A stretch of DNA of 33,178 nt from Bacillota bacterium (GTDB taxonomy: Bacteria; Bacillota; Clostridia; Saccharofermentanales; Fastidiosipilaceae). The stretch is taken from the NCBI GenBank assembly GCA_030055235.1, contig JASGUW010000075.1, positions 1-33,178 on the forward strand, in the 5' to 3' direction. The notes beneath the pieces were generated by a model. That model saw only the letters and a list, made by a program, of their open reading frames with translations. It was not told the origin of the DNA and searched no databases. Both the position numbers and the translations under genes were made by a program. The number at the start of each line of letters is the position of its first letter. Positions within the stretch are counted from its first letter, which is position 1. Shown in pieces: positions 13,327 through 29,700 of this stretch.

Positions 13327-14937
13327 CTAGATGAGAAATTGCTTTTTAGCGTCGTCGACTTTGATGTGAGCCGGGATCCTGAGGCCGAAGTGGCTGAAAT
13401 AATCCTTGAGCGTCTGGTCTGCCACTTCCGTCGTCACGATTCCTTCTTTATTTTTGGAGCACATCAGTGATTGAGCTCGGCCCAACAGCTCAGAAATGGA
13501 AAGTGCTTTTCCACCTATCTCTTTGTCAATCATCTGAAGGACAATCGCGTTAATGATGTCGAAAAGGATCTTCCCCCGTACTGCCTGATCGTTCCATTTT
13601 GACAGCGGCAGCAAATCCAGGTAGTCTCTGCTCGTTTTGAAGGTTGTTTCCACATCAACTCGTCCGAGATATTCTGACAGCAGTTTTTCGGGACTTGTGT
13701 CCTTGTTGGAAAGCAGGACAAAGTAGCCGAACTTCACTTTCATCCAGTCTTTTTCCGATTCCTTCATCTTCTCGTAGGCTTCAGGATTCTCTTCCAGATG
13801 CTTGTGGTAGTGCTGCAGAGCCTGATTCTGATCGACATAGATGTAGGCGTAGACAGGGGTATCGAAGAGACGGATCTCTTTGCGATATCCGAAGTACAGG
13901 TGTGATTTGCGGACAAAATCGTAGCTGCCCCGGCCAAGCAGCGGCTTTACCTCATGGTAAAGCGATTCATATGGATAGCTCCTGCGCGCCGGCATGCGAT
14001 ATATGAGTTCCTTATTATTTCCTATATGATTGGCATTCAGCAGGTCTTCGGCAACATAGTCCGTATCCAGAACAAAAGACTCGATCGATATCTGAAGCTT
14101 GCCAAAAGCATCCTCCATGACGCTGCGGATGCTGCCAAGGTCAGGATCATTTCCCGGAATGATGTCGTACCAGACGGGCAAAGCAGTTTCCTCATCCAGA
14201 AGGAGAATCAGACGCATTTTTACCGCATCGCTGCCAAGACCATGGCAGCAGAGGGTGCTGAAGGGATTGTTTTCTATCTCATTGGGGAGGGGCATGGAGT
14301 CGACATAACAGGCCCGGCCAAAGGATGGCGTGAGCGTACGCATATGAGCTGCAAAAGCAGTGAAGAAGGAGAGGCGCGCGGTCTCTTTTCCCAGTCGCTG
14401 GAAGAAAAGGCTGTCCGAGCGCAGGGATGTCAGTGGCACGTCCGTCAGCAGATAGGAAGCAAATGACCTGCGCAGCAGGTTATCACAGCTGATTCTGCTG
14501 CCGTCCCGCAGGATCTGGTGCAGAACATGGCAAAGAAGCCGCTGGTGCTCTTCCTTTTTGGGGAAGGCGCTGCGCAGCACGGCGCCCAGGCCGCTTTTTT
14601 CCAGCAGGCTCAAAAGCAGCCAGCTGTCGCCGAAAATGGTGTGGATGACCGGTTCCGGGAAGAGAGCGTGGTCCTGCAGGCGCTCATCATCTTTGTCAAC
14701 CGGCATAAAAATCCCGCTTTGAGCATCGTATTCCACGAGTCCCCTGCTCGGCGACTGAAAAATACCACGTTTCCCCGATTCATCCAGATAAATCACAGAG
14801 CCGAGTCTCTCCACAACGACCTGTTTGGAGTGGTATTTCGCGCCTTTGACATATCTCGACTCTACGATGGCAGCTGAGCCACTGACGATGCGTCCGCTCT
14901 CATCGCGAACGAGCTTTTGTACCTTTATAAAACTCAA
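13327..14937 (-). CDS. IS1634-type DDE transposase
   Basis: A complete transposase of 536 residues if it starts at TTG 14937, which I prefer because AGGAGG lies 8 bases upstream. The frame is open to GTG 14946, but that codon directly abuts the Shine-Dalgarno. Candidate catalytic residues, numbered from GTG 14946, are D216 (CYVDSMPLPN), D294 (FVLDTDYVAEDLL) and E433 (GRVDVETTFKTSRDY), spaced as in the IS4/IS1634 group. The usual DKGYYS-like motif is DTDYVAE here, a variant. No frameshift is seen, so it may be functional. It separates the accessory zone from the dcw cluster and points away from it. It is not closely related to the transposase at the left edge. Confidence 0.88.
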   Translation of the reverse strand: MSFIKVQKLVRDESGRIVSGSAAIVESRYVKGAKYHSKQVVVERLGSVIYLDESGKRGIFQSPSRGLVEYDAQSGIFMPVDKDDERLQDHALFPEPVIHTIFGDSWLLLSLLEKSGLGAVLRSAFPKKEEHQRLLCHVLHQILRDGSRISCDNLLRRSFASYLLTDVPLTSLRSDSLFFQRLGKETARLSFFTAFAAHMRTLTPSFGRACYVDSMPLPNEIENNPFSTLCCHGLGSDAVKMRLILLLDEETALPVWYDIIPGNDPDLGSIRSVMEDAFGKLQISIESFVLDTDYVAEDLLNANHIGNNKELIYRMPARRSYPYESLYHEVKPLLGRGSYDFVRKSHLYFGYRKEIRLFDTPVYAYIYVDQNQALQHYHKHLEENPEAYEKMKESEKDWMKVKFGYFVLLSNKDTSPEKLLSEYLGRVDVETTFKTSRDYLDLLPLSKWNDQAVRGKILFDIINAIVLQMIDKEIGGKALSISELLGRAQSLMCSKNKEGIVTTEVADQTLKDYFSHFGLRIPAHIKVDDAKKQFLI

Positions 14938-14946
14938 AGTCTGCAC

Positions 14947-15534: not shown

Positions 15535-15972
15535 ATGGCGCGTTACACACACAACAGCGACCAGAAAGGTCGGATTGTGATCCCCGCCCGCCTGCGCGAG
15601 CGGATGGGTACGACTGTGTATGTGACGCTTTCACTGGACGAAGGCTATCTGGCTGTCTATACGGAAGAACGCTTTGAAAGCGTACGTCGCCAGCTCGACG
15701 TACAGTCCGGCACCAACCCGCTGGTGCGCCGCCTGCGCCGCGCCATCATCGGTGAGGCGCTGCCCTGCAATCTGGATGCCCAGGGTCGTATCGGCATCAG
15801 CGATGAACTCTGGTCGGAGATCGGCGTGCAGCCGGGAGATGCGGTCTACCTGACGGATATGGGCGACACCATCCTGATCTGTGGCCGTGACTTCTTTGAG
15901 ATGCGCCGGACGGTGGAGACACCGATCAGTGCGCTGGATCTGAGTGAAATCGATGTCAGCCAGATCATATGA
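15535..15972 (+). CDS. mraZ: MraZ transcriptional regulator
   Basis: A 145-residue DNA-binding regulator at the head of the dcw cluster. It has the two expected SpoVT/AbrB-like half-domains, marked by DQKGRIVIPARLRE near the N-terminus and NLDAQGRIGISDELW in the second half. Normal length is about 140-150. MraZ forms rings that bind repeats upstream of its own gene and controls transcription of division genes. AAAGG lies about 8 bases before ATG 15535. The stop overlaps the start of rsmH, so the two are probably translationally coupled. Confidence 0.96.
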   Translation: MARYTHNSDQKGRIVIPARLRERMGTTVYVTLSLDEGYLAVYTEERFESVRRQLDVQSGTNPLVRRLRRAIIGEALPCNLDAQGRIGISDELWSEIGVQPGDAVYLTDMGDTILICGRDFFEMRRTVETPISALDLSEIDVSQII

Positions 15973-16969
15973 GATCCCGCCTGCACGCTTCGAGCATGAA
16001 CCGGTTCTTCTCGATGCGGTGATCAGGGAGCTTGAGCTCCGCCATGACGGTTCCTATGTGGACTGCACCGTTGGAGGGGCCGGACATGCAGCCGCCATTT
16101 ACGGGCAGCTTGGTAAAGGCGGTCGTCTTCTGGGCATCGATCGTGACCCGACCGCCGTCGCCGCCGCCCGGGCCCGTCTGAGTGCCCTGGCGGCAGCAGG
16201 CGAAAAGCAGGGAGAAGACGCCGCGGCCTGGACGGTCCGGCAGGCGCACTTTGCGGATCTGGACGAAGTCATGGATGAGTGCTGGGGCCAGGGCAGCCGC
16301 GCCAGCGGCATACTGGCGGATCTCGGCGTCTCAAGCCCGCAGCTTGAATGCCCCGAGCGCGGCTTCAGCTATCACAGCGACGGCCCCCTGGACATGCGCA
16401 TGAATCCGGAAGAGGGCGAAAGCGCGCTCGACCTGATCCGCCGCGTCGACCAGCGGGAGCTGAGCCGCATTCTGGGCGAATACGGCGAGGAACGCTATGC
16501 CGGGCGTATCGCCCGCAGGCTGCAGGAAGCGGCGCACGAGTGTGAACTTGAGGGCCGCAGTCTGACAACGGCAGCTGCTGCGGCGGCGATCGCCGCAGTA
16601 ATGCCGGCACGCTCGCGGCGTGAGGCACAGCATCCGGCACGGCGCAGTTTTCAGGCTCTGCGCATTGCCGTCAACGATGAACTGGGTGAGCTTGAACGCC
16701 TGCTCACACAAGCTCTGGAACGGCTGGAGGACGGCGGTCGCCTGCTGATCATCAGCTTTCACAGCCTGGAAGATCGCATTGTCAAGCACCGTCTGCGCAG
16801 CTGGCAGAATCCCTGCGACTGTCCGCCGTCGATGCCCTGCAGCTGCGGGAAGAAGAGCCGGGGGCGGGTGATTGCGGGCCGCGGCATTGTGGCAGATGAA
16901 GCTGAAACTGAGAGAAATCCCCGCGCCCGCAGCGCGCGACTCAGGATATTCGAACGACATGACGAATGA
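15944..16969 (+). CDS. rsmH: 16S rRNA m4C1402 methyltransferase RsmH
   Basis: RsmH (MraW) methylates N4 of C1402 in the 16S rRNA decoding site using S-adenosylmethionine. Seen are the N-terminal FEHEPVLLDAVI, the SAM motif DCTVGGAGHA, ILADLGVSSPQL, and the C-terminal HPARRSFQALRIAVNDEL and SFHSLEDRIVKHRLR signatures. At 341 residues it is somewhat longer than the usual 310, with an insertion near residues 75-95. The frame opens at GTG 15944, with ATG at 15953 also possible. Both overlap the end of mraZ and neither has a strong ribosome binding site, which fits coupling. Confidence 0.95.
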   Translation: MKSMSARSYEIPPARFEHEPVLLDAVIRELELRHDGSYVDCTVGGAGHAAAIYGQLGKGGRLLGIDRDPTAVAAARARLSALAAAGEKQGEDAAAWTVRQAHFADLDEVMDECWGQGSRASGILADLGVSSPQLECPERGFSYHSDGPLDMRMNPEEGESALDLIRRVDQRELSRILGEYGEERYAGRIARRLQEAAHECELEGRSLTTAAAAAAIAAVMPARSRREAQHPARRSFQALRIAVNDELGELERLLTQALERLEDGGRLLIISFHSLEDRIVKHRLRSWQNPCDCPPSMPCSCGKKSRGRVIAGRGIVADEAETERNPRARSARLRIFERHDE

Positions 16970-17097
16970 ACGTCCTGACTAATATTGAGAAGAATCTACT
17001 CCGGTAATAGATCATAAACTTATAACAACATGACGATCTAAAGAGTGGAGGAAGTGCTTAGAAATAGAAGCTTAGAGGGCAGAGGGCAGATCAGAAA

Positions 17098-17652
17098 ATG
17101 GCAGATGCACTGCGAGCCAATGACAGCGCCTGGGGTGAGGAGATCCCGGCTATCCCGCGACGGGGAACACAGGTCCATCCGGAGATCTATTTTGTCGAGT
17201 CTTCGGAGCGACGTCTTCGCGCCCGCTATTCCAATCTCCGGCGCCGTGAACAGCTTGAACGCTTACGCGGCTTTCTGCTGCTTGCGGCCGGCAGCGTCCT
17301 GGCCGCGCTGCTCGTGGGTGCTCTGGTGGCCAGTCATGCCCGCCTGATGAGCCTGAGCCATAACAATGCCGCCATGGAGCGTGAAATCCAGCGACTGGAA
17401 ACCCTGACCCGCCAGAAACAGGTGGAGCTTGTGGAGCGCATTGACGTGACCGCGATTGAGGCGCGTGCGCGTGAACTCGGACTTGACTATCCGCGTCAGG
17501 CTCAGCAGATCTACATCCAGATCCCCGGAGCCGACGGACTGGTTCTGCGCGACGCCGAGATGTCCGCCCAGACGGCCAGAGCCGCCGCTGAGGCGACGGC
17601 CAGGTCACAGACGGCCGAAAGTATGGCCGCCGCGAATGCCGACGGCCGCTGA
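17098..17652 (+). CDS. ftsL: FtsL-like septum formation protein
   Basis: A 184-residue bitopic membrane protein placed between rsmH and the PBP gene, where ftsL lies in most bacteria. A charged cytoplasmic N-terminus of about 55 residues precedes one membrane helix (about 57-77, LLLAAGSVLAALLVGALVAS), then a heptad-like coiled coil (MEREIQRLETLTRQKQVELV) and the short conserved end IEARARELGLDYP. It would join FtsQ/DivIB and DivIC at the septum. The Ala/Thr-rich C-terminal tail makes it longer than typical FtsL (about 110-120). A 128-base AT-richer gap separates it from rsmH, the only sizeable gap before sbp. Identity rests on topology and context. Confidence 0.8.
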   Translation: MADALRANDSAWGEEIPAIPRRGTQVHPEIYFVESSERRLRARYSNLRRREQLERLRGFLLLAAGSVLAALLVGALVASHARLMSLSHNNAAMEREIQRLETLTRQKQVELVERIDVTAIEARARELGLDYPRQAQQIYIQIPGADGLVLRDAEMSAQTARAAAEATARSQTAESMAAANADGR

Positions 17653-17660
17653 AACCGGCC

Positions 17661-19904
17661 ATGGACATGTACCAGGATGACAGGAAGGGTCGTCTGGAAA
17701 GCGCTTCCCGGGAGCGCCTGAGCCCCGCGGGACCGCTTTTTCTGGCGCTTTGCTTCGGCGCCGCCAGCGTGATCATCCTGCTGTCTCTCTACCGCATTCA
17801 GGTCCGTGAGCACGAGGTCTACGCCCGGGCCGCGGATCAGCTGCATTTTCGCAGCGTTGAGGAAACGCCCGGCCGCGGTCCGATCTATGCCGCGGGCGGC
17901 GAACCGCTCGCCCTGACGCGCTATGTGTACACCATCGGCATCACACCCCGGGATCTGAAATCACAGGGTACGAAGCGCCTGCCCCGGGAGACTGTCATCT
18001 CGGACCTGGCGGCCCTGCTGACCCTTACACAGGAAGAAGTCGAAGATGCCGCCGCCAGGGTCGACGAAAACTGGGTACTGCTAAAAAGAGATGTCGACCG
18101 CGAAACCCATGACCGCCTCGTTGCCTGGCGCCGCGAATACCGCGTCAGCGGCATCGCCATCGATCCCACCATGCTGCGCCACTACCCTCAGAATGAGACA
18201 GCCTCTGCCGTGATCGGCTTTGCCTCACAGGCGGAGGACATGAAGGGGATCAGCGGCATCGAAGCCGTCTACAACGAACGCCTCAGCGGACGGCCGGGCT
18301 TCCGCTATGCCGAGCTCGACAACTACGGCGGCGGCCAGCTGCCCTACAGCCGCAGCACGGCCGGCAGCGGCCATGACGGCTCGGGGCTGGTGCTGAATCT
18401 CAATCTGGGCATTCAGAAGGCGGCACAGACTGCGATTGATCTGGCCGTCCGGCGCTATCAGGCAGACAGAGGCGTCGCCGTCGTGCTCGATCCCCGCAGT
18501 GGCGCCATCCTGGCCATGGCACAGACAGGTGCCTACGATCTCAACGATCCCTACGCCCGGCCTGTCGGCTGGGACGGGGAGGACTGGCAGCCCAAAAACG
18601 ACAGCGAAGCGCGCAACTACCTCTACAGCAATGTCTGGAACAGCCGCGCCATCACCGACGGCTATGAGCCCGGCTCGACCTATAAGGCCCTGACCGCCGC
18701 CATCGCCCTGGATCTGGGCCTGGTCACAGAGACGGAGGTCTTTTCCGACGATCCCGTCTGGGTGGAGGGCTGGACCCAGTACCCGATCTCCTGCTCCGTC
18801 GAGGGCGGACACGGGCAGCGCACGCTGGCCGAAGCCCTGGAGACTTCCTGCAACCCGGTCTTTGTGCAGCTGGCGCAGCGCATCGGCATTGAGCGCTTCT
18901 ACGAATACGTGCGCGCCTTCGGCCACCGCGCGCCGACGGGCATCGATCTGCCCGGCGAATCCTCCGGTATCATTCACACCAATCCCATCCCGATTGACCT
19001 GGCGGTCTGGTCCTTCGGCGAGCAGGCGACCGTGACGCCGCTGCAGCTGATTTCTGCCTTCGCCTCCTTCGCCAACGACGGCATCCTGATGCGCCCGCAG
19101 GTTGTCGCGCGCTTTCTGAGTCCGGAAGGGGAGACGGAAGAGTCCGTCGCCCCGGAGGCCGTACGCCAGGTGATCTCTCCCGCGACGGCCGCCAGAATGC
19201 TGACACTGCTGCGCGGCGTGGTTGCCCGGGGCACCGGTGAAGTTGCGGAGGTTCCCGGCTACCGCGTGGCCGGGAAGACCTCGACCTCCACCCACGGCGA
19301 AAACGACGAGCATGAGGTGGTCTCCTTCGCCGCGCTCGCCCCGGCCGCGGATCCCCAGATCGCCGTACTGACAATTCTCTACGACCCCCAGGCCTCCAGC
19401 GCTTCCTGGCCGGCTCAGATCGCCTGCCGCACGATCATCGACAAGAGCCTGGGCGTACTGGGCGTCCGCAAGTCCTGGACGGACGCGGAACTGGCCCGCC
19501 TCTTCAGCCCCCAGTCCATCCGCGACGTCGTCGGCCAGACTGTCGGTGAAGCAGTCCGCCGCTCTCCCATTGTCTGCTGGGAGGCGCAGACGGCAGCCGG
19601 TGTCGATCTGGACAGCGAACAGACGGTCCAGGCCCAGTATCCGCCGCCCGGCACGCTGACCGCGGGCTGCGGCAGCTTCTACGTTTCGGTCGACGGCCTG
19701 ATCCCGGAGGATCCGGTAGCGGTGCCGGACTTCGCCGGCCTGGGCCTGGAAGAAGCCCTGCGCCTGGCTGAGCGCAGCGGCCTCAACCTGCGCCTGGAGG
19801 GCCCCAATCCCCGCGGCGTGGTGACGGGTCAGTCGCCGCAGCCCAGCAGCCAGAATACGGGCAGTGTCAGACGCTACAGCGTGATCACACTGCAGTTTGG
19901 GTGA
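17661..19904 (+). CDS. Class B penicillin-binding protein with PASTA-like C-terminus (FtsI/SpoVD type)
   Basis: A 747-residue septal peptidoglycan transpeptidase with one N-terminal membrane helix (about 25-47), a PBP dimer domain (GRGPIYAAGGEPLA), and the transpeptidase domain. The nucleophile S339 is in STYK (EPGSTYKA) and the second motif is SCN at 396-398. The third motif is KTS at 539-541 (VAGKTSTS) instead of the usual KTG. Two PASTA-like repeats follow: the first begins near 613 and is poorly conserved, the second near 688 (VAVPDFAGLGLEEALRLAE). Partner is FtsW, encoded in the same cluster. It may be PBP2B-like or SpoVD-like; no sporulation genes are seen nearby, which favours the vegetative role. 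It lies 8 bases after ftsL and its stop overlaps the next start. Confidence 0.93.
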   Translation: MDMYQDDRKGRLESASRERLSPAGPLFLALCFGAASVIILLSLYRIQVREHEVYARAADQLHFRSVEETPGRGPIYAAGGEPLALTRYVYTIGITPRDLKSQGTKRLPRETVISDLAALLTLTQEEVEDAAARVDENWVLLKRDVDRETHDRLVAWRREYRVSGIAIDPTMLRHYPQNETASAVIGFASQAEDMKGISGIEAVYNERLSGRPGFRYAELDNYGGGQLPYSRSTAGSGHDGSGLVLNLNLGIQKAAQTAIDLAVRRYQADRGVAVVLDPRSGAILAMAQTGAYDLNDPYARPVGWDGEDWQPKNDSEARNYLYSNVWNSRAITDGYEPGSTYKALTAAIALDLGLVTETEVFSDDPVWVEGWTQYPISCSVEGGHGQRTLAEALETSCNPVFVQLAQRIGIERFYEYVRAFGHRAPTGIDLPGESSGIIHTNPIPIDLAVWSFGEQATVTPLQLISAFASFANDGILMRPQVVARFLSPEGETEESVAPEAVRQVISPATAARMLTLLRGVVARGTGEVAEVPGYRVAGKTSTSTHGENDEHEVVSFAALAPAADPQIAVLTILYDPQASSASWPAQIACRTIIDKSLGVLGVRKSWTDAELARLFSPQSIRDVVGQTVGEAVRRSPIVCWEAQTAAGVDLDSEQTVQAQYPPPGTLTAGCGSFYVSVDGLIPEDPVAVPDFAGLGLEEALRLAERSGLNLRLEGPNPRGVVTGQSPQPSSQNTGSVRRYSVITLQFG

Positions 19905-21391
19905 TTTTTATGCGAAGCCATCATCAGGACCACCGCGACCTGGCCCCGCTGCTGGCGGGACTCGAGCCCCTTCTGATCGAGGGGCCGCTCTCCGCTTCTG
20001 TGCGCCGCCTGGCCTATGACAGCCGCCAGATCCTGGCGGCAAGCCTCTTTGTAGCCATCCCCGGCGAACGCCTGGACGGCCGCAGCTTCGTGCCGGAGGC
20101 CATCCGTGAAGGTGCCGTCGCCATTGTCTATCAGGCGGAGGACCGGGAGTCGGCCCGCCGCCTGGCTGTCGCCTGGCGGGAAAATGCCGCCGCCGACAGC
20201 CTGACCTTCGTCGCCGTGGCCGACGCCCGCCGGGCTCTGGCCCGGCTCGCCGTGAACTTTTACGGGCGCCCGCCGGACGAACCGCGGCTCTGGGTCGTCT
20301 CCGGACCCACGGGTACCCGCACACTGGCGGCGCTGCTCCACGGCGCGCTGTGTCAGCTTGGCATCCGGGCGGGCCTGGTGGACGGCATGCGGCTTTATGT
20401 CGGCCGGGAGATGCGCTATGCGACGCGGAATCATCCGGAAGCGCCGGAGATAGAGGCCATTCTCTGTGCCTTTCGCGAAGCCGCTGCCGGCCGCGCCGTG
20501 CTCAGCTTCGCGCCCGGGGATCTGGAACATGCCCGGGCCGCCGGTCTGGTCCCGGAGGCAACGCTGCTGACCGGACCCGTCGCCGCCGCGGCGGAACTTG
20601 GGGCGGCCAGTGGCTGGGTGCAGACGCCCGTGAGTCACACGGAGATAAGGGCCACGGGCCGCTGGAACAGCGTGCTGCGGGCGACGGATCTTTGCCGGAC
20701 GCGGGTCGACGGACGGGCGGGGACGAGCTTTGCCTGTACAATAAACGGACATATGCGAAGACTGGAACTTGGCGTACCGACCGGATTCATGGTCAGTAAC
20801 TGCCTGCAGCTGCTGCAGCTGCTGAACCTGGCCGGACTGCCCTGCGAGCCGCTTCTGCCCTGGCTTCGGACACTGACGCTGCCGGGTCACCTGGAGACGG
20901 TGCCCAACCGCCTGGACGCGGACCTCTATGTCGACCACGCCTGGACGGCCGCCGAGCTGGAGACGCTGCTGCTGGAGCTCAGACCGCACTGCCGCGGCCG
21001 TCTCATCGTGGTGGCCGGCGCCGGCGGCGATCGCAGCGCCCGGCCGCGCCGCGCGCTGGGTCAGGCAGCCGCGCGTCTGGCGGACATCGCCGTGCTGACC
21101 AGCAGCAATCCCCGCTCCGAAGGCGCTGACGCCATCGTACGCGATCTGCTGGATCTGACCGACGGCGAAAGAGCCCGGGTCTACGGCATTCCCGACCGGG
21201 TGGAGGCTATCGGACTGGCCGTCCGCCTGCTGGAGCCCGGCGACCTGCTGCTGCTGGCAGGGAAGGGAGCGGAGAGTTTTCGCATGCATGCAACGGCCAT
21301 TGAAGCCTATTCCGACCGTGCGGTGCTGGAGGCGGCGCTGGCGCGCCGCGGAGCCGGAGCGGAGACGAACGAAGAAAGGGAGCTGCCATGA
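19901..21391 (+). CDS. MurE-like protein with degenerate catalytic motifs
   Basis: A full-length 496-residue Mur-ligase-fold protein at the exact place of murE, between the PBP gene and murF. MurE adds the third stem-peptide amino acid to UDP-MurNAc-dipeptide. The N-terminal domain (RLAYDSRQILAASLFVAIPG) and C-terminal domain (VVAGAGGDRSARP, NPRSE, GKGAESF) are recognisable. Key residues are lost, however. The P-loop normally reads TGTNGKTTT but is SGPTGTRTL here, so the ATP-binding Lys is T139. The TTPE segment is NHPEAPE. The EVSSHAL motif is not found. YAHTPD is HAWTAA, the DNPR of meso-DAP enzymes is SNPR (402-405), and GKGHE is GKGAE. The frame is intact. GTG 19901 overlaps the PBP stop, and ATG 19910 is an alternative start. 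It is probably a pseudoenzyme or has a changed function. Confidence 0.85.
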   Translation: MIFMRSHHQDHRDLAPLLAGLEPLLIEGPLSASVRRLAYDSRQILAASLFVAIPGERLDGRSFVPEAIREGAVAIVYQAEDRESARRLAVAWRENAAADSLTFVAVADARRALARLAVNFYGRPPDEPRLWVVSGPTGTRTLAALLHGALCQLGIRAGLVDGMRLYVGREMRYATRNHPEAPEIEAILCAFREAAAGRAVLSFAPGDLEHARAAGLVPEATLLTGPVAAAAELGAASGWVQTPVSHTEIRATGRWNSVLRATDLCRTRVDGRAGTSFACTINGHMRRLELGVPTGFMVSNCLQLLQLLNLAGLPCEPLLPWLRTLTLPGHLETVPNRLDADLYVDHAWTAAELETLLLELRPHCRGRLIVVAGAGGDRSARPRRALGQAAARLADIAVLTSSNPRSEGADAIVRDLLDLTDGERARVYGIPDRVEAIGLAVRLLEPGDLLLLAGKGAESFRMHATAIEAYSDRAVLEAALARRGAGAETNEERELP

Positions 21392-22878
21392 CCCGGGAGT
21401 ATCTCATTGACGAAATCAGGGAAGTCCTTGACTGTCCGCTCTACTGCGGCGGCAGCCTGCGGGAAGAGGCGGGCCCCGACCGGCGCTTTGGCGGCGTGTC
21501 CACCGACAGCCGCCGTCTGCTGCCCGGTGAACTCTTCATCGCCCTGCGCGGCGAGCGCTTTGACGCCCATGACTTTCTGGATCAGGTGGCGGGACGGGCG
21601 GCCGCCGTTGTCATTGACCGCCCGGACGCGCTCGCCGGACTGCCCGCTAAGCTGCCGGCGCTGCTGGTGCCGGACACCATGACGGCGCTGGATCAGATCG
21701 CGGCCTGGTACCGCCGCCGTCTGGGAGCCCTGGGAGCCAGGGTTATAGCCGTGTCGGGCAGTGTGGGGAAGACGACGACACGTGAGATGGTCATCGCCGC
21801 GCTTGGACGCAAATTCAAAGTCCACGGCACAGCTCAGAATCTCAACAACCATATCGGCCTGGCGCAGACGCTGTTCGCGGCGCCGGAGACGGCCGAACTG
21901 CTGGTGCTTGAGCTCGGCATCGATCAGCCGGGCGACATGGACGTTCTGGGCGCCGTGGCGAATCCGGACATTGCGATCCTGACCGTGCTCGGCCTTTCCC
22001 ATGTCGCCCACTTCGGCGACCGCGAAGGTATCGCCCGCGAAAAGCTACGGCTGCTGGCCCATGTGCGGCCCGGCGGTGCCTGGATCCTGAACGCCGACGA
22101 GCCGCTGTTCCGGCAGGCGGCCCGGGAGGCCATAGGCGTTAGGGTGACGCTGGTCTCAGACCAGGATGCCCGGCCCTCCGATCTGCCTCCGACGGCCGAG
22201 CTCCTGGTGGCCCGCGATATTGAGACGACGGCCACCGGCACGCGCTTCGCCGTTGACCTGAAAACGGCCCCGGCGCCCGACGCCGACTGTCTGCTGCCGC
22301 GGGTCGACCTGGACGTGGCCGGCCGCCATCAGGTCAGAAATGCCCTCTTCGGCCTGGCCGCGGCACGCCTTCTGGGCCTGGCGCCCGCAGAGGCGGCCGC
22401 CGGGCTCGTCGACTTCGTCACCACCGGCGATCGCCTGCGCCTGGTGGAGATCGCCCCGCTCACGGTGGTCAGCGACGCCTATAATGCCAGTCTGGAATCG
22501 ATCGGGGCGGCCCTGGACTTTGTCGACACCATTGCCGCCGGACGGCGGCGGGTGGTGGCCATCGGCGGCATCGCCGAGCTCGGCGACCACAGTGACGAAG
22601 TGCATGAGGCGGTCGGGCGCCGTATCGCCCGGACGGCTCCCGACCTGGTTTTTCTCTCCGGTCCCGATGCCGGGGCCATGGAGCGGGGGCTGCGGGCGAC
22701 GCCGGAGGGAGAGGCGGTCTGCTGCCGGAGCTTCGCATCCAGAGAGGAACTGGAAGAGGCTCTCATTGCGGCCGTGCGCCCGGACGACCTGATCCTGCTG
22801 AAGGCCTCCCGTACCTATGCTTTTGACCGTCTGCTTGAACCACTCACACGCCGTGCGGAGGAACTTCGGCATGCCTGA
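21388..22878 (+). CDS. murF: UDP-N-acetylmuramoyl-tripeptide--D-alanyl-D-alanine ligase
   Basis: MurF adds D-Ala-D-Ala to complete the cytoplasmic peptidoglycan precursor. The 496-residue protein has an intact P-loop (SGSVGKTTT, K128), the AQNLNNHIGLAQTL segment, ELGIDQPGDMD, the GDR loop, and VSDAYNASLESI (usual DAYNANPDS). All three Mur-ligase domains are present. ATG 21388 overlaps the preceding stop as ATGA, with AAAGGGAG upstream. The contrast with its degenerate neighbour shows that loss of motifs there is not a property of the whole cluster. Confidence 0.95.
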   Translation: MTREYLIDEIREVLDCPLYCGGSLREEAGPDRRFGGVSTDSRRLLPGELFIALRGERFDAHDFLDQVAGRAAAVVIDRPDALAGLPAKLPALLVPDTMTALDQIAAWYRRRLGALGARVIAVSGSVGKTTTREMVIAALGRKFKVHGTAQNLNNHIGLAQTLFAAPETAELLVLELGIDQPGDMDVLGAVANPDIAILTVLGLSHVAHFGDREGIAREKLRLLAHVRPGGAWILNADEPLFRQAAREAIGVRVTLVSDQDARPSDLPPTAELLVARDIETTATGTRFAVDLKTAPAPDADCLLPRVDLDVAGRHQVRNALFGLAAARLLGLAPAEAAAGLVDFVTTGDRLRLVEIAPLTVVSDAYNASLESIGAALDFVDTIAAGRRRVVAIGGIAELGDHSDEVHEAVGRRIARTAPDLVFLSGPDAGAMERGLRATPEGEAVCCRSFASREELEEALIAAVRPDDLILLKASRTYAFDRLLEPLTRRAEELRHA

Positions 22879-23884
22879 TCTACGTGACATCATCTGTACC
22901 TTTTTCTTCGGGCTCGGGGGCCTGGCCGCCGCCGCTCTGCTCGGCCGCCCGCTGCTCGCCTGGCTCGGCCGCCTGCAGGTCGGCCAGCAGGTGCGCGAAC
23001 TGGGGCCGAAGTCGCATTATAAAAAGAGCGGCACGCCGACCTTCGGCGGCTTCATCTTCATGTTGCCGATTACGGTCGGGACCGTGGTCATCGCCCTGGG
23101 CTGGCCCGGGGCCCGGGGTCTGATCCCCCTGCTGATCTATGCGCTGGCGCTGCTGGCCACCGGTTTTGCCGACGACTATGTGAAGGTGCGCATCAATAAA
23201 AAAGGCCTTTCACCGCTGGCGAAATCGATCCCGATGTTCGTCGCCACGGCCGCCTTCGTCCTCTGGTATCTCAGCGGTCACATGACCCTGCCCGTCCTGC
23301 TGGTGCCCTTCACGAAGCTGCGGCTTGAGATCACGGGCTGGTGGCGCCTGCCCTATGCGGTCTTTGCCTTCCTTTATCTCTACTACATCGCCAACTCCGT
23401 CAATATCACCGACGGCGTCGACGGCCTGCTCTCCTCCGTCACCATCCCCGTCGCCCTGCTGCTGGGGCTGGGCGGTGAGCTGCTCGGCCTTCCGGGAACG
23501 GGCGGCTATGCCCGGCTCGGCAGCCTGATGACCGGCGCGCTCCTGGGCTTTCTCATCTACAACCGCCATCCGGCCCGGGTCTTCATGGGCGACACCGGCT
23601 CGCTCGCCCTGGGCGGCCTGCTGGCGGGCATGGGGCTGGTGACCGGCAGTCCCTGGATCTTCCTGTCGGCGGGCTTCATCTTCTGTGCCGAAAGCCTTTC
23701 GGTCATCATCCAGCGCGCCTACTACCGCCGCACCGGCGGCCGGCGCATCTTTCGCATGTCGCCGATCCACCATCACTTTGAGCTCGGCGGCTGGCCCGAG
23801 CCTGTCATCGTGCGCCGCTTCACGCTGGTGACCGTGCTGGGCTCACTGCTGGGTCTGGCAGCCTGGTGGCTGCAGCTCGGATGA
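22871..23884 (+). CDS. mraY: Phospho-N-acetylmuramoyl-pentapeptide transferase
   Basis: MraY transfers phospho-MurNAc-pentapeptide to undecaprenyl phosphate, making lipid I. It is a 337-residue polytopic membrane enzyme. Visible motifs: PKSHYKKSGTPTFGG, the Mg2+-binding DD at 101-102 (FADDYVKV), NITDGVDGL with D181, FMGDTGS with D241, and PIHHHFELGGW with H300-H302. I start at ATG 22871 rather than further upstream because CGGAGG lies at 22856-22861 and the protein then has normal length. The start overlaps the murF stop by 8 bases. Confidence 0.96.
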   Translation: MPDLRDIICTFFFGLGGLAAAALLGRPLLAWLGRLQVGQQVRELGPKSHYKKSGTPTFGGFIFMLPITVGTVVIALGWPGARGLIPLLIYALALLATGFADDYVKVRINKKGLSPLAKSIPMFVATAAFVLWYLSGHMTLPVLLVPFTKLRLEITGWWRLPYAVFAFLYLYYIANSVNITDGVDGLLSSVTIPVALLLGLGGELLGLPGTGGYARLGSLMTGALLGFLIYNRHPARVFMGDTGSLALGGLLAGMGLVTGSPWIFLSAGFIFCAESLSVIIQRAYYRRTGGRRIFRMSPIHHHFELGGWPEPVIVRRFTLVTVLGSLLGLAAWWLQLG

Positions 23885-25269
23885 AACGCGAAGAGCTCGG
23901 ATTTGAAGAGGGCCGCCAGGTTCACTTCGGCCTTCTGGCACTGGTGCTGGTGCTGCTGCTGTCCGGCCTGGTCATGCTCTTTTCGGCGTCGATGGCCCGG
24001 GGGCTGGTGCGCGAATCCGATACGACGCACTACATCGCACGGCAGATTGTCTTCTCCGCCGCCGGCCTCTTTGCCATTGCCCTGCTGACGCGTTTTCCGG
24101 CGCGGCGCCTGAACCGGGCCGCCCTGGCCGCCGGCAGCTATGTCCTGGTGACGCTGCTGCTGCTTCTGGTCCTGAGTCCCCTGGGCATCACCGCCAATCA
24201 GCACCGGCGCTGGCTGCCGCTGCTGCCGGGCATGACCTTCCAGCCCTCCGAGCTGGCCAAGATCGTCCTGGTCTTCGCCGCGGCCGTCTACTACGAACGC
24301 CTGGCCGCCTGGCGCCGGACGGAGGACTACGGCTGCCGCCGGCTGCGCCGCCGGGAGCGGGACGACAGGGGGCGTGAACGGATCCGCCGGGTGCGGGTCA
24401 AACTCAGTCCGGGCGGTCGGCTGTGGCGTGACTTCGCCTATGACATCCTCCTGCCCGCCGCCGCGCTGGGCATCTGGCTCGTCCTCATCGCCCTGCAGTC
24501 GCATGTTTCGGCCATGCTCATCCTCTGCCTGCTGCTTGTGTCAGTGATGCTCGGAGCCGATATCCGGCCGCGCTCCTGGCTGCTCGGCGGAGCTCTGGCT
24601 CTGGTGCTGGGCTCTCTTCTGGTCCTGCTGCTCTGGCTGAACCGCGACAGCCTGCAGGCCCTGGCCGCCAACGGCGGTCTGGTCGGGAAGATTGCGCAGC
24701 GCCTGGGCATCTTTCTGGGTCTGCCGGGTGTGACCGGCGACGATGTCTACCAGTCGGAGCAGGCCCTGATCGCCATCGGCTCGGGCGGTTTCTGGGGGAT
24801 TGGTCTGGGACGCAGCGCGCAAAAGACGAACTACCTCCCGGAAGCCCATAATGACTACATTTATTCGATTATCTGCGAAGAGTTGGGCTTTGTCGGCGGA
24901 GCGGCGATCGTGCTGCTCTTTTTCGTCTTCATGCTGCTGGGCTTCCAGATTGCCGGCCGGCAGCGGCGCCGTTTCGAACGCGTACTGGCGGTCGGTTATA
25001 CCTCTCTCATCTGCATTCAGGCGACCTTGAGCATAGCGGTCAATCTGCGCCTGGTTGCACCGACGGGTGTTTCGCTGCCCTTTTTCAGCTATGGCGGCAC
25101 GGCGAACTTTTTCTTCCTGATCGCCGTCGCCATGCTTTTAAACACATCCAAGTTCGGCGTCCCCCTTCCGCGCCATGAAGGAACAGGAGATGCCAGGGCC
25201 CCTGCCGCCGCTCGTCGCAGCGGACGGCCCGGGGCCGCTTCCGGGAATCCGGGGGAGGCAGCATCATGA
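23881..25269 (+). CDS. ftsW: FtsW peptidoglycan glycosyltransferase (SEDS family)
   Basis: A polytopic SEDS protein that polymerises lipid II at the septum with the cognate class B PBP. It has GLVMLFSAS in the first helix, RRWLPLLPGMTFQPSELAK, the large extracellular loop with EAHNDYIYSIICEELGF, and PTGVSLPFFSYGGTA near the end. Start ATG 23881 overlaps the mraY stop (ATGA). Two oddities: an Arg-rich cytoplasmic insertion of about 35 residues (about 145-180, CRRLRRRERDDRGRERIRR) and an Ala/Arg/Gly-rich C-terminal tail. murD, which usually lies between mraY and ftsW, is absent. Total 462 residues, somewhat long for the family. Confidence 0.95.
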   Translation: MKREELGFEEGRQVHFGLLALVLVLLLSGLVMLFSASMARGLVRESDTTHYIARQIVFSAAGLFAIALLTRFPARRLNRAALAAGSYVLVTLLLLLVLSPLGITANQHRRWLPLLPGMTFQPSELAKIVLVFAAAVYYERLAAWRRTEDYGCRRLRRRERDDRGRERIRRVRVKLSPGGRLWRDFAYDILLPAAALGIWLVLIALQSHVSAMLILCLLLVSVMLGADIRPRSWLLGGALALVLGSLLVLLLWLNRDSLQALAANGGLVGKIAQRLGIFLGLPGVTGDDVYQSEQALIAIGSGGFWGIGLGRSAQKTNYLPEAHNDYIYSIICEELGFVGGAAIVLLFFVFMLLGFQIAGRQRRRFERVLAVGYTSLICIQATLSIAVNLRLVAPTGVSLPFFSYGGTANFFFLIAVAMLLNTSKFGVPLPRHEGTGDARAPAAARRSGRPGAASGNPGEAAS

Positions 25270-26408
25270 GTGCATCGGCCCCAGAAGCTCTTGTCCTGTT
25301 TACCGGTGGCGGTACCTCCGGCCATATCACGCCGGCGCTGGCGATCGCCGAGGAACTGTGCGCACGTGTCCCGGGCGTACGGGTGGAATTTGTCGGTTCG
25401 GCAGACGGCCTGGAGGCGGATATCGTGCCGCGGGCGGGCTATGTCTTTCACCCCGTCAACGCGCGGCCCTTCCGCCGCCGCCTCTCAAAGGAACTGCTGC
25501 TCGCCGTGCGGGATCTTTTTGTCGGCCGCCGCCAGTGTCTTGGGCTGCTGGACCGGCTGCGGCCCGCCGCCGTCGTCGCCACCGGTGGCTATGTGTCGGC
25601 GCCGCTGCTGGCCGCCGCCGCCCGGCGGGGTGTGCCCTTCCTGATCCATGAGCAAAACGCCCTGCCCGGCCGCGCCAACCTGATGATGGCCCCAAAGGCC
25701 GGCGCGATCTGTCTGGGTTATGAGGCCGCCCGCTCCCATTTTCCCGCCGCCGCCCCGGTCACGGTGACCGGCAATCCGGTGCCGGCTCTTTATCGTGAGC
25801 TGACGCGGGAGGCGGCCAGACGGCGCCTGGGCTTTGGCCCGGAGGAACGCATTGTCCTGGTCACCGGCGGCTCGCTTGGGGCCAGGACCCTGAACCGCAT
25901 TGCGCTCGACTGGCTGGAGACAGATTCCGCGGCGGCGGATCTGCGCCTGATCCTGGTTTCCGGCCGCCTCCTGGCCGCAGAAACCAGGGAGCGCGCTCAG
26001 CGCATCGCCGATCCCCGCCTGGAACTCCATGACTTCCTCTATGACATGCCCTGGTATCAGGCGGCGGCGGATCTCATCGTCTGCCGTGCCGGGGCACTGA
26101 CCTGTGCCGAAATCGCGGCGCTCGGCCGCGTCGCTCTGTTCATTCCCTATCCCTATGCCACCGGCGATCATCAGGCGCATAATGCCCGCGTCGCCGAGAC
26201 GGCGGGGGCGGCCTTCTTCGTCCGTGACGCGGAAGCCAGTGCCGCCCGGTTTGAGGAAGTCCTGAGACGCCTGGAAGAACCGGGGGTTAAAGAAAAGATG
26301 GAGGCGAATTCGCGGAGCCTGGCCCAGCCGGAGGCCCGCCGCGAGATCTGTGACCGTCTGCTTGAAATCTGGCAGAGGGCCCCGGACGCCGGAGCGGGCG
26401 CTGAATGA
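25266..26408 (+). CDS. murG: MurG lipid II-forming GlcNAc transferase
   Basis: MurG adds GlcNAc to lipid I on the inner face of the membrane, making lipid II. It is a 380-residue GT-B enzyme. The N-terminal glycine-rich loop is GGGTSGHITPALA, followed by EQNALPGRAN, VTGNPV, the second glycine loop VTGGSLGA, and the UDP-GlcNAc-binding region CRAGALTCAEIAALGR with PYATGDHQAHNA. All are typical. ATG 25266 overlaps the ftsW stop. The genes murC and murB that often follow murG are not here; ftsQ comes directly next. Confidence 0.96.
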   Translation: MSASAPEALVLFTGGGTSGHITPALAIAEELCARVPGVRVEFVGSADGLEADIVPRAGYVFHPVNARPFRRRLSKELLLAVRDLFVGRRQCLGLLDRLRPAAVVATGGYVSAPLLAAAARRGVPFLIHEQNALPGRANLMMAPKAGAICLGYEAARSHFPAAAPVTVTGNPVPALYRELTREAARRRLGFGPEERIVLVTGGSLGARTLNRIALDWLETDSAAADLRLILVSGRLLAAETRERAQRIADPRLELHDFLYDMPWYQAAADLIVCRAGALTCAEIAALGRVALFIPYPYATGDHQAHNARVAETAGAAFFVRDAEASAARFEEVLRRLEEPGVKEKMEANSRSLAQPEARREICDRLLEIWQRAPDAGAGAE

Positions 26409-27337
26409 AACGCCCTGCGTCCGGACGCCAGAGCCGTCCCGCCCGGTCGCGGGTTGTCTCCTACCATGAGGGCCGGAGGCGTCTGGAACGCGAAAAAGGC
26501 GCCGCTGCCCGTCGCAACCGCCGTGGCCGCCGCGCCCGTCCGATCGTGACCGCGGTCGCTGTCGGGCTGCTGCTGGCCACGGCGCTGCTGCTCTGGCGCC
26601 TGCCCGCGCTCAGGCTGGAGCAGGTCTATGTCAGCGGCAACGTCCAGCTCGGCCGGGAGCGGATCGTGGCGGCAAGCGGCCTGGCCTACCGCCAGCACCT
26701 GGCGGCAGGTCTGGACGGCCTGGGGCGTTCGCTCTTTCACAGCCCGGAGCTGCGCTATGCCGCGGCCGAGCGGCGTATTCTGGCCGAGCTGCCCCTGGTG
26801 GAGGCGGTCAGGGCCACGCCCCAGCCGCCTTCCGGCGTCAGGATCGAGATCCGCGAACGCCGTCCGGTGGCCCGCCTGGCCAGCGGCGACACGAGTGCCC
26901 TGCTGGCGGCCGACGGTGTCGTGCTGGGTTTTCTGGCGCCGGGAGAGGAGTCGGCCCTGCCCCTGATCGAGGGTGTGGCGGCCGAAACGACGGTGCCGGG
27001 TGCGGCGATCAGCGGCCCGGACCAGGCGCGCGTCCGGCGCTCACTGCAGGTGCTTGACGAGATCAGCCGCGCCGACCGGGCCGACAGCGCCGACTGGTCG
27101 CTGCTGCAGGCGGTGATCTGTGTCCGCTCGATTTCGGAAGAGATGAGCTATCTCATCGTCCGGCTCACGAACGGGGCGGAGCTCGCCGTCCGCCTGGGCG
27201 GTCCCAGGCTGCTGGAAGAACAGGTGCTCTGGCTGCGGCATGCCGTCCGCAGCGGTCGCCTGGAAACACTGGGCCCGGGACTTCTGGACCTGGCCGCCGA
27301 ACGCTACGTCTATATTCAGGAAGAGGAGGGACCCTAG
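26405..27337 (+). CDS. ftsQ: FtsQ/DivIB-type cell division protein
   Basis: A 310-residue bitopic divisome protein. A very Arg-rich cytoplasmic N-terminus of about 45 residues precedes one membrane helix (about 46-66, PIVTAVAVGLLLATALLLW). Next is the POTRA domain (LRLEQVYVSGNVQLGRERIVAASGL) and then the FtsQ/DivIB beta domain (EIRERRPVARLASGD, AADGVVLGF). It would recruit and regulate FtsL, DivIC and the PBP/FtsW pair. ATG 26405 overlaps the murG stop. Whether it is called FtsQ or DivIB depends on lineage; in Bacillota the usual name is divIB. Confidence 0.9.
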   Translation: MKRPASGRQSRPARSRVVSYHEGRRRLEREKGAAARRNRRGRRARPIVTAVAVGLLLATALLLWRLPALRLEQVYVSGNVQLGRERIVAASGLAYRQHLAAGLDGLGRSLFHSPELRYAAAERRILAELPLVEAVRATPQPPSGVRIEIRERRPVARLASGDTSALLAADGVVLGFLAPGEESALPLIEGVAAETTVPGAAISGPDQARVRRSLQVLDEISRADRADSADWSLLQAVICVRSISEEMSYLIVRLTNGAELAVRLGGPRLLEEQVLWLRHAVRSGRLETLGPGLLDLAAERYVYIQEEEGP

Positions 27338-27338
27338 C

Positions 27339-27863
27339 ATGCTTCCCCTGCTTGGCATCATCATCGGACTTCTGATCGGCCTCTTTATGAATGTCGAAAT
27401 TCCGCGCGGCTACAGCGCCTATGTGGCGATTTTCATCGTCGCCGCCTTTGATTCGCTTGTCGGGGCCATCCGCGCCAACCTTGAAGAGCGCTTCAGCCTG
27501 CGCCTGCTGCTGACCGGCCTGCTCGGCAACTCTCTGATTGCCCTCTTCCTGACGGCGCTCGGTGAGCGCCTGAAGCTGGAGCTGAATCTGGCTGCGGTTT
27601 TCGCCTTCGTCATCCGCATCATCAACAACTTTTCCATCATCCGTCGCCTCTGGCTTGAGCAGCTCGACCGGCGTGTCCTGCAGCGCCGGCGTGTAGCGGG
27701 ACAGCCGACCGTGTCGAACGAAGAGCGGGTGGCGCCCCATGAGCCGTCGTCGCTGGGCCGCCGCCTGCCCGGTGCACGTGAGAAGCAGGAAGGCGCAGCG
27801 CGCCGGGAGCCATCCGGCCCTGAAAGCCGCTCGGAAGAACTGCCGGCCGACACTCAGGGCTGA
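27339..27863 (+). CDS. sbp: Small basic protein (DUF1290 family), extended
   Basis: A membrane protein of the small basic protein family found between ftsQ/divIB and ftsZ in many Bacillota. Its role is not well defined, although it is linked to division by location. ATG 27339 is chosen because GAGGAGGGA lies just upstream and MLPLLGIIIGLLIGLFM matches the family start. Three membrane segments and the conserved RGYSAYVAI, AAFDSLVGAIRANLE and FAFVIRIINNFSIIRR are seen. The family is usually about 110-120 residues. This one has 174, with an extra charged, Pro-rich tail after about residue 110 that looks disordered. Confidence 0.88.
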   Translation: MLPLLGIIIGLLIGLFMNVEIPRGYSAYVAIFIVAAFDSLVGAIRANLEERFSLRLLLTGLLGNSLIALFLTALGERLKLELNLAAVFAFVIRIINNFSIIRRLWLEQLDRRVLQRRRVAGQPTVSNEERVAPHEPSSLGRRLPGAREKQEGAARREPSGPESRSEELPADTQG

Positions 27864-28200
27864 AATTTGTCAGCATGACGGAAAACGGGACAGGAGCTTT
27901 GCAAAGACGTCATAACCACCGCGAATATAGCCTATATTACAGGAATATTTCATTTTCATTACAATATGCTGTTTGAGGCCTAAGATCATGATGTCATAAC
28001 AAATATCTCTGCTATCCTTCGATTCTGAGAAGAACTCTTGCAGGCACGGCAGGCTTCGCGTACAATAGGCGGGAATTGTCGCGGCTGAATTCTGTCGTTC
28101 TGACAATCTGTGCACAGCATACGCTCATGGAGCGCTGTTATTGGGTACCCGCTGACGCATAAGGAGCATCCGGCCATACCGGAGGAATGGAAGGGCACAA
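27864..28200 (+). promoter_or_regulatory. AT-rich ftsZ upstream region with promoter and dyad
   Basis: This is the only long gap within the cluster and is markedly AT-richer than its neighbours. A clear promoter has TTGCAG (28038-28043), a 17-base spacer and TACAAT (28061-28066), placing transcription start about 130 bases before ftsZ. Upstream, AATATAG-C-CTATATT (27924-27938) is a perfect dyad, and CGTCATAAC/TGTCATAAC is repeated near 27909 and 27993. These could be regulator sites. ftsA, often present before ftsZ, is absent. Confidence 0.65.
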
Positions 28201-29700
28201 GTGGACAAATATTCGAGCAGGCCTCTGAACTACACAGCCGCGGACCACGACGGTTACGCGTCAATTCGCGTGATCGGCGTCGGGGGTGGCGGCTGCAACG
28301 CCGTTGACCGCATGATTGAGAGCGATGTGCAGGGCATCGAGTTCATCACGATCAACACCGACTATCAGGCGCTCGAGCGCTCGCAGGCGACGCATCGCAT
28401 CCAGATCGGTGAGAAGCTGACCCGCGGACTCGGCGCCGGCGCTGACCCGGAAATCGGGGAGAAGGCGGCGACGGAATCCAAGGATGAGATCGCCTCATTG
28501 ATCCGCGGCACGGACCTGCTCTTTATCACCGCCGGCATGGGCGGCGGTACCGGTACGGGTGCCTCTCCGGTCGTGGCGGCCATCGCCCGCGACATGGGCA
28601 TACTGACCATCGGCGTGGTGACCCGCCCCTTCCGCTTTGAGGGTGCCATGCGCATGCAGAATGCGGAAACCGGCATCCGCAACCTTGAACAGTATGTCGA
28701 CAGCCTGATTGTCGTCCCGAACGACAAGCTGCTGGAAATTGCTGATGAAGACACTACCTTTGATGAGGCCTTTGCCATTGCCGACCAGGTGCTGAAGTAC
28801 GGCGTTGCCGGTATCTCTGACCTGGTCGCCGTCCCCGGTCTGATCAACCTGGACCTGGCCGACGTCCGCCGCGTCATGGTCGGCGCCGGCATCTGCCACA
28901 TGGGCATCGGCCGTGCCAAGGGTCAGGACCGCATTGAGATCGCGATTGATGAGGCCCTGCACAGCCCGCTGCTGGATACCAGCATCGACGGCGCGCACCG
29001 CCTGATCGTCAACTTCACCGGCCACAACCTGCGCCTGCAGGAGATCAACATGGCGACGAGCCTGGTGCGCGACTCCGCCGCCCCGGACGCCGACATCATC
29101 CTCGGCGCCGTCATCGACAACACGATGGAAGACGAGATCATGATTACCGTCATCGCCTCCGGCTTCGATCCGGCGGGGGAGACACAGCAGCGCCAGTCCC
29201 TGAACGAGCGCCTGGCCCGTGGTGCCAGTGACCGCGGCCGCCAGACCGCGCCGCAGGCGGGTCGTCTGGAAAGTGGCGGCTGGCGCCGTGCCAACTACGG
29301 CTCTTCCTATCAGCCGGGCGCTTATTCGCGTGACAACGAGCCGCGCCAGAGCGCGCCCGCGCCTGCGCCCGCTCCCGCACCCGCGCCCGAGCGTCCCCGC
29401 CGTGACGAAGCGGTGGAGACCGAGCGCAGCTACCAGTCGAACTGGCGCACGAACCGTCCCGAACCCGCAGCGTCGGATGAGGACATCCCGGCCTTCCTGT
29501 CCGGTTCCGGCCGTACGGCTGCCCCGGCCCCGGCGCCCTATCAGGAGCCGGCGCCGCGTGCCACCGCACCGCGCATGGATACCCGCCGTCATTCGGACAG
29601 TGACGACAGGCGTCGTTCCGACACTGTTGAGAAGCGTAAGACCGGCCGCATCCTGCCCTGGTTCTTCAGTGATACGGATGAGGAGCACAGCGATTCCTGA
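28201..29700 (+). CDS. ftsZ: Cell division GTPase FtsZ with long C-terminal tail
   Basis: FtsZ is the tubulin-like GTPase that forms the division ring. The GTP-binding signature GGGTGTG is near 112-118, and N216-L-D-L-A-D is the catalytic T7 loop. The core runs from about 20 to 325 ([13 protein letters not shown] to [10 protein letters not shown]). A disordered tail of about 170 residues has an Ala-Pro repeat (about 382-396). The conserved C-terminal peptide that binds FtsA/SepF/ZipA-type partners appears as DIPAFL at 428-433, about 66 residues before the end. The protein then ends with a second hydrophobic patch, [10 protein letters not shown]. The start is GTG 28201; GAAGGG lies about 5 bases upstream and GGAGG about 15. 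Total 499 residues, long for the family. Confidence 0.97.

Follow-up and report, generated by a model that had tools for sequence, protein, structure and literature searches.

It has long been asked whether Mur ligases, apart from catalysing their reactions, also play a structural part in a cytoplasmic complex that makes cell-wall precursors, and the question is hard to test, the enzymes being essential. The nearest precedent for the gene described here is PAP11, a homologue of MurE that the plastid RNA polymerase carries as a peripheral subunit; in angiosperms it is part of this other machine and not of peptidoglycan synthesis (PMC12681378). Closer to the bacterial cell wall, Bordetella pertussis encodes a MurE-MurF fusion, which contacts MurG (PMC6420597). 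In this fusion and in the structure of a MurE-MurF ligase (PDB 8f5d) a MurE body is joined to MurF and can bind MurG, which supports a structural role. We report a MurE homologue, encoded in the dcw cluster of a bacterial genome, that matches PAP11 in sequence and fold, the likeness being limited to these two. PAP11 is eukaryotic, has a longer N-terminus and keeps many catalytic residues, whereas the bacterial protein has lost its catalytic residues and its gene still lies in a cell-wall operon. It differs also from the MurE of Bordetella, which is active and fused, in being separate and, judged by its residues, probably inactive. Our search of the open-access literature (subscription journals were outside its scope) turned up no account of an inactive MurE at the dcw locus of a bacterium, and phage records gave only distant MurE matches (~28% identity). 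Here the body and the catalysis of MurE appear to have come apart naturally; the catalytic copy is unlinked and one of the host strains is in culture, so that the old question becomes directly testable.

A MurE homologue between ftsI and murF

The gene is located in a dcw cluster (15535..29700, + strand) of the window, by which we mean the whole stretch of 33,178 nucleotides that was analysed. The cluster consists of mraZ, rsmH, an ftsL-like gene, ftsI, the MurE homologue, murF, mraY, ftsW, murG, an ftsQ-like gene, a gene for a DUF1290 protein and ftsZ. The homologue (19901..21391, + strand; 496 aa) starts with GTG, an in-frame ATG at 19910 being a possible alternative start, and its 496 codons contain no internal stop. 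Upstream of it, an ftsI/spoVD-type gene for a PBP with a PASTA domain (17661..19904, + strand) overlaps it by four bases, and its own stop overlaps the start of murF in the four bases ATGA (21388-21391). The murF gene (21388..22878, + strand) is intact, with 331 bits against a cut-off of 289 and the P-loop GSVGKT. Both the open frame of 496 codons and the tight overlaps with the neighbours, which the original prediction had pointed out, are therefore present. The GC content by codon position (0.77/0.53/0.78) is similar to that of the neighbouring genes. A frame of 471 codons also runs antisense over the gene (window 19874-21289, - strand); we took it as a by-product of the high GC (GC3), other genes here being overlain likewise, and not as a gene. 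Upstream of the cluster there are two long ORFs on the - strand, one of 1212 aa (window 6577-10215) with a weak GH17 match and one of 539 aa (window 13327-14946) with no match in Pfam.

The protein scored below the curated cut-offs of two MurE profiles, with 207 bits against 257.3 for TIGR01085 and 235.7 bits against 476 for NF001124 (PRK00139). A Pfam profile search matched its N and C domains and gave no match for the middle ATP domain. In spite of these scores the protein is, by its sequence, a MurE homologue. The protein is predicted to retain the three-domain Mur-ligase fold: an AlphaFold model (pLDDT 74, pTM 0.69, from a shallow input alignment of six sequences) aligned with solved MurE structures along almost its entire length with Z scores of 25-28, as for 2xja (Z 27.6, 449 residues, rmsd 3.6). 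In what follows, G000 is the window's genome, G001 its genus mate, f1 its family, and f2, f3 and f4 are other families. With the dcw-encoded MurE (TIGR01085; E. coli and families f2 and f4) the protein shares the position between ftsI and murF, the length, the predicted fold and 45 residues that vary neither in the dead clade nor in the active orthologues. It differs from the active dcw MurE in lacking the ATP, metal, carbamyl-lysine and TT motifs, in falling below the family cut-off and in having an invariant signature of its own.

Residue changes and selection in the dcw copy

Residues were mapped by aligning the protein with E. coli MurE and nine ordinary orthologues from sister families. 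The E. coli numbering (UniProt) and the roles of the residues are those that we take to hold for this enzyme, and the letters themselves were checked in the alignment. Residue roles were also drawn from PMC3829189. The P-loop, which in MurE ligases reads GTxGKT/S, is degenerate (G135-PTGTR-T141; 20303..20323, + strand), with K120 replaced by T139 and T121 by R140. The TTP substrate loop has lost both its Thr (T158-T159 to N177-H178), and in place of this motif the protein carries GMR (162-164) and RNHPEAPE (176-183), a putative pseudoenzyme signature (20384..20449, + strand). The EVSS metal-site position reads SFAP (202-205; 20504..20515, + strand), so that the metal-site Glu has become Ser (E183 to S202). 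The DH..H lid (D210/H211/H215) is deleted and the carbamylated K225 is replaced by Ala. The DYAHT motif reads D345-H-A-W348-T (20933..20947, + strand), with Trp for His (H360 to W348) in five of the five clade members. A remnant of the DAP-recognition motif DNPR is found as SNPR (402-405; 21104..21115, + strand), where the first Asp is changed (D414 to S402) and N-P-R is kept at 403-405, and GKG.E is kept at 454-458 as GKGAE (H468 to A457). The original prediction had read the P-loop as SGPTGTRTL, with T139 for the Lys, and the other ligase motifs as changed; the alignment with E. coli MurE agrees, with the qualification that NPR and GKG.E persist.

Among the ligand-side residues, the uridine-side Ser (S29, here S41), the UMAG-contact Arg (R193, here R212) and the pocket Arg (R390, here R378) are kept, and Arg378 and Arg405 are invariant throughout the pseudoenzyme clade. 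The new residues are conserved as well: GMR, RNHP and PE are identical in all five clade members, and G162, M163, N177, H178 and P182 are absent from active orthologues. Altogether 13 positions, including N177, H178, D207 and W348, carry a residue that all clade members share and none of the active orthologues has.

Orthologues lacking the motifs were found in five genomes from three genera of Clostridia, all at ftsI-X-murF, and the carriers include a cultured isolate, HV4-5-C5C (DSM 103941). The copy in G001 is 79% identical and lies in the same slot, as do those of G008 and G011 (~35% identity), which show the same losses, and that of G007 (32% identity), where the P-loop Lys is kept and the other motifs are gone. 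The carrier genera form one clade, (G007,(G008/G011, G000/G001)), in a protein tree of seven dcw genes (support 1.000), and in the MurE tree the dead copies form a single group (89) whose sister is the active dcw MurE of families f2 and f4. Since G007 still has the P-loop Lys, the sequences are most simply explained if this residue was lost later and the metal-site, lid and TT-loop losses predate the split of the clade. Sister families have an ordinary DAP-type MurE at this slot, while the other sampled genera of f1 have lost the gene: in six genomes (G002, G003, G004, G006, G009 and G010) the slot is empty and ftsI is followed directly by murF. When a profile of the pseudoenzyme was searched class-wide against 391 genomes, the best score outside the genus was 379 bits, against 744 within it. 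The best matches outside the genus were ordinary MurEs, and the P-loop and EVSS were kept in 28 of the 28 best non-genus loci, which were the ones checked. As all nine sister-family orthologues also keep every motif lost here, the losses, on these comparisons, are not due to chance. The number of lost invariant positions does not discriminate alone, being 42 in the dead copy and 44 in the second MurE (murE2, below); it is the identity of the lost positions that separates the two.

Sequencing or assembly error was rejected, since five genomes from three genera lack the motifs and one of them comes from an isolate, with a reported coverage of 2,457x. An intact P-loop in relatives at this locus had been proposed as the sign of such an error or of a recent pseudogene. 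It was found only in other families; inside the clade the Lys survives in G007 alone, whose copy has lost the other motifs. The motifs are missing at this locus from the genus mate and from two further genera, which argues against both.

To estimate selection, dN/dS was calculated by the Nei-Gojobori method on single sequence pairs. For the dcw copy it was 0.229 (CI 0.174-0.296) between G000 and G001 and 0.120 (0.086-0.161) between G008 and G011, and its middle domain is constrained too (0.19 and 0.16). The same pairs gave 0.212 and 0.118 for the neighbouring murF and 0.238 and 0.105 for murE2. The dcw copy is thus under purifying selection equal to that on murF and murE2, and the claim of selection rather than decay, for which dN/dS among relatives had been suggested as a check, was borne out (0.23 and 0.12). 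The frame is intact at a dS of 0.65-0.74, and about 21 stop codons would be expected under neutrality where none was seen, which together with the dN/dS values led us to reject a recent pseudogene.

An unlinked MurE and the stem peptide

A second murE is encoded in G000 on another contig (C231:7083-8447; L046:7017-8537). It scored 358 bits and has all catalytic positions intact, and no other murE candidate in this genome exceeds the curated cut-off. A second, intact murE, which the original prediction had suggested might lie elsewhere, is thus present and, from its residues, appears to do the ligase chemistry. Orthologues of murE2 are present in G001, G004 and G008/G011. Contamination is an unlikely source of the contig, since the orthologue in G001 (82%) lies on a contig with the same SatD-family gene and the copies of G004 and G008 group with it. 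Each member of family f1 has an unlinked MurE, those of G002, G005 and G009 scoring below the cut-off. The murE2 of G007 (G007:C130, L066) belongs to a different MurE clade from the G000 and G008 copies and groups with family f3. Because G007 keeps the dead copy despite this, the role of the dcw copy is suggested to be independent of which MurE makes the tripeptide.

None of the murE2 proteins has a full DNPR, and GKGHE is mostly missing too, with replacements that differ by genus, which suggests that the choice of the third residue has been diversified or relaxed. The amino-acid motif replacements by genus read KDTG, KDSG, DMLY, EEVG, QDVV, KDVV, DDPG and QHSR.

Neither dapF nor Ddh had a match over the cut-off in any of the 12 family f1 genomes tested, and a search of 11 of these for the broader Pfam epimerase family gave no match either. 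For G000 alone the absence of dapF is weak, the assembly being fragmented (242 contigs, 94% complete); the weight comes from all 12 genomes, some of which are in one or few contigs. DapA and a LysA-like decarboxylase are present in the family, and DapL in G000, G001, G003, G007 and G008, so LL-DAP can probably be made by the DapL carriers. For the reaction that normally leads to meso-DAP (and on to lysine via LysA) the family has no recognised enzyme. Because the family is without dapF and Ddh and its intact MurE without the DAP motif, meso-DAP is unlikely to be the third stem residue, and f1 appears to be a lineage in which the meso-DAP stem peptide has been abandoned. The unusual stem peptide that had been offered as an alternative is thus upheld in part, as far as the missing dapF and Ddh and the intact MurE without DNPR and GKGHE go.

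In the genera carrying the dead MurE, dapL adjoins a Mur-ligase-like gene (L114-L117; G000:C91, G001:C38, G007:C15 and G008:C23). We considered this ORF as another MurE and rejected it; judged by eye, from its sequence and an adjacent GatD-like ORF in G008, it is probably MurT.

Possible roles of the retained copy

From its residues and its substitution pattern, the dcw copy is very probably both ligase-dead and under selection. It carries three marks of a pseudoenzyme: homology with the catalytic residues missing, purifying selection across genera and an active-looking counterpart elsewhere. Whether it serves the cytoplasmic Mur machinery as a non-catalytic adaptor, made with FtsI and MurF, is in our view an even call. 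The dcw cluster of the ancestor would have encoded an ordinary DAP-type MurE. In family f1 the ligase job would have passed to the unlinked murE2, after which most sampled genera would have lost the dcw copy and one clade would have kept it. This copy would then have lost the ATP/acyl-phosphate chemistry, kept the three-domain MurE body and gained conserved residues of its own. With frames that overlap ftsI and murF, its production may be coupled to theirs, and it may take MurE's place beside MurF/MurG in a cytoplasmic Mur complex, holding MurF/MurG near FtsI. It might still bind UDP-MurNAc-peptide or an amino-acid ligand and convert neither. We infer the adaptor role, which explains the data most simply, from the overlapping genes and from the published MurE-MurF/MurG contacts (PMC6420597); persistence at the locus is no proof of a partnership with MurF. 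More tentatively, and at somewhat less than an even chance, the protein could be a dedicated non-catalytic subunit of a divisome-linked lipid II machinery, with a new conserved pocket (GMR/RNHP/W), in a lineage with changed stem-peptide chemistry whose ligase reaction has moved to an unlinked MurE.

Given the selectively retained ligand residues, the main rival to the adaptor reading is a sensor or regulator: on binding UDP-MurNAc-dipeptide, tripeptide or a DAP-like amino acid, the dead MurE would signal the supply of precursors to a partner such as MurF or FtsI. The retained R212, R378, R405 and GKG could equally mean this, as they and S41 do not vary in spite of the destruction of the ATP site, and the TT loop has been replaced by an equally conserved NHP, not by random residues. 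However, some of the retained residues may serve folding, the protein has no regulatory domain, and the supply of DAP is doubtful with DapL present but the epimerase not found; we regard a sensor as rather unlikely.

Less probable still is a new enzyme, which would use the MurE scaffold to catalyse another, ATP-independent reaction via the RNHP/GMR/W pocket. The new polar invariants (RNHP) could mean new chemistry, and the 13 clade-specific positions would fit it, but the G007 and G008 versions diverge widely elsewhere in the middle domain and no enzyme with the Mur fold is known to us that functions without a P-loop.

That the dcw copy, for all its unorthodox residues, has remained an active MurE and that murE2 does something else is very improbable. 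The G007 copy, with its P-loop Lys, just passes the TIGR01085 cut-off (260 vs 257 bits), and the Arg and GKG of the amino-acid site persist; yet the other catalytic positions are gone in five of the five clade members, and murE2 lacks none of them and is the sole candidate over the cut-off in G000. A decaying pseudogene, on its way to the empty slot of the six sister-genus genomes and suggested also by the progressive loss of the P-loop, is the least credible reading, since in two independent genus pairs dN/dS is the same as for the cell-wall genes next to it, the frame has stayed intact and the new signature is common to the clade.

In family f3 dapF had no match in G013, G016 and G018. In these genomes and in G021 MurE is likewise encoded outside the dcw neighbourhood, possibly through a parallel loss of the dcw murE.
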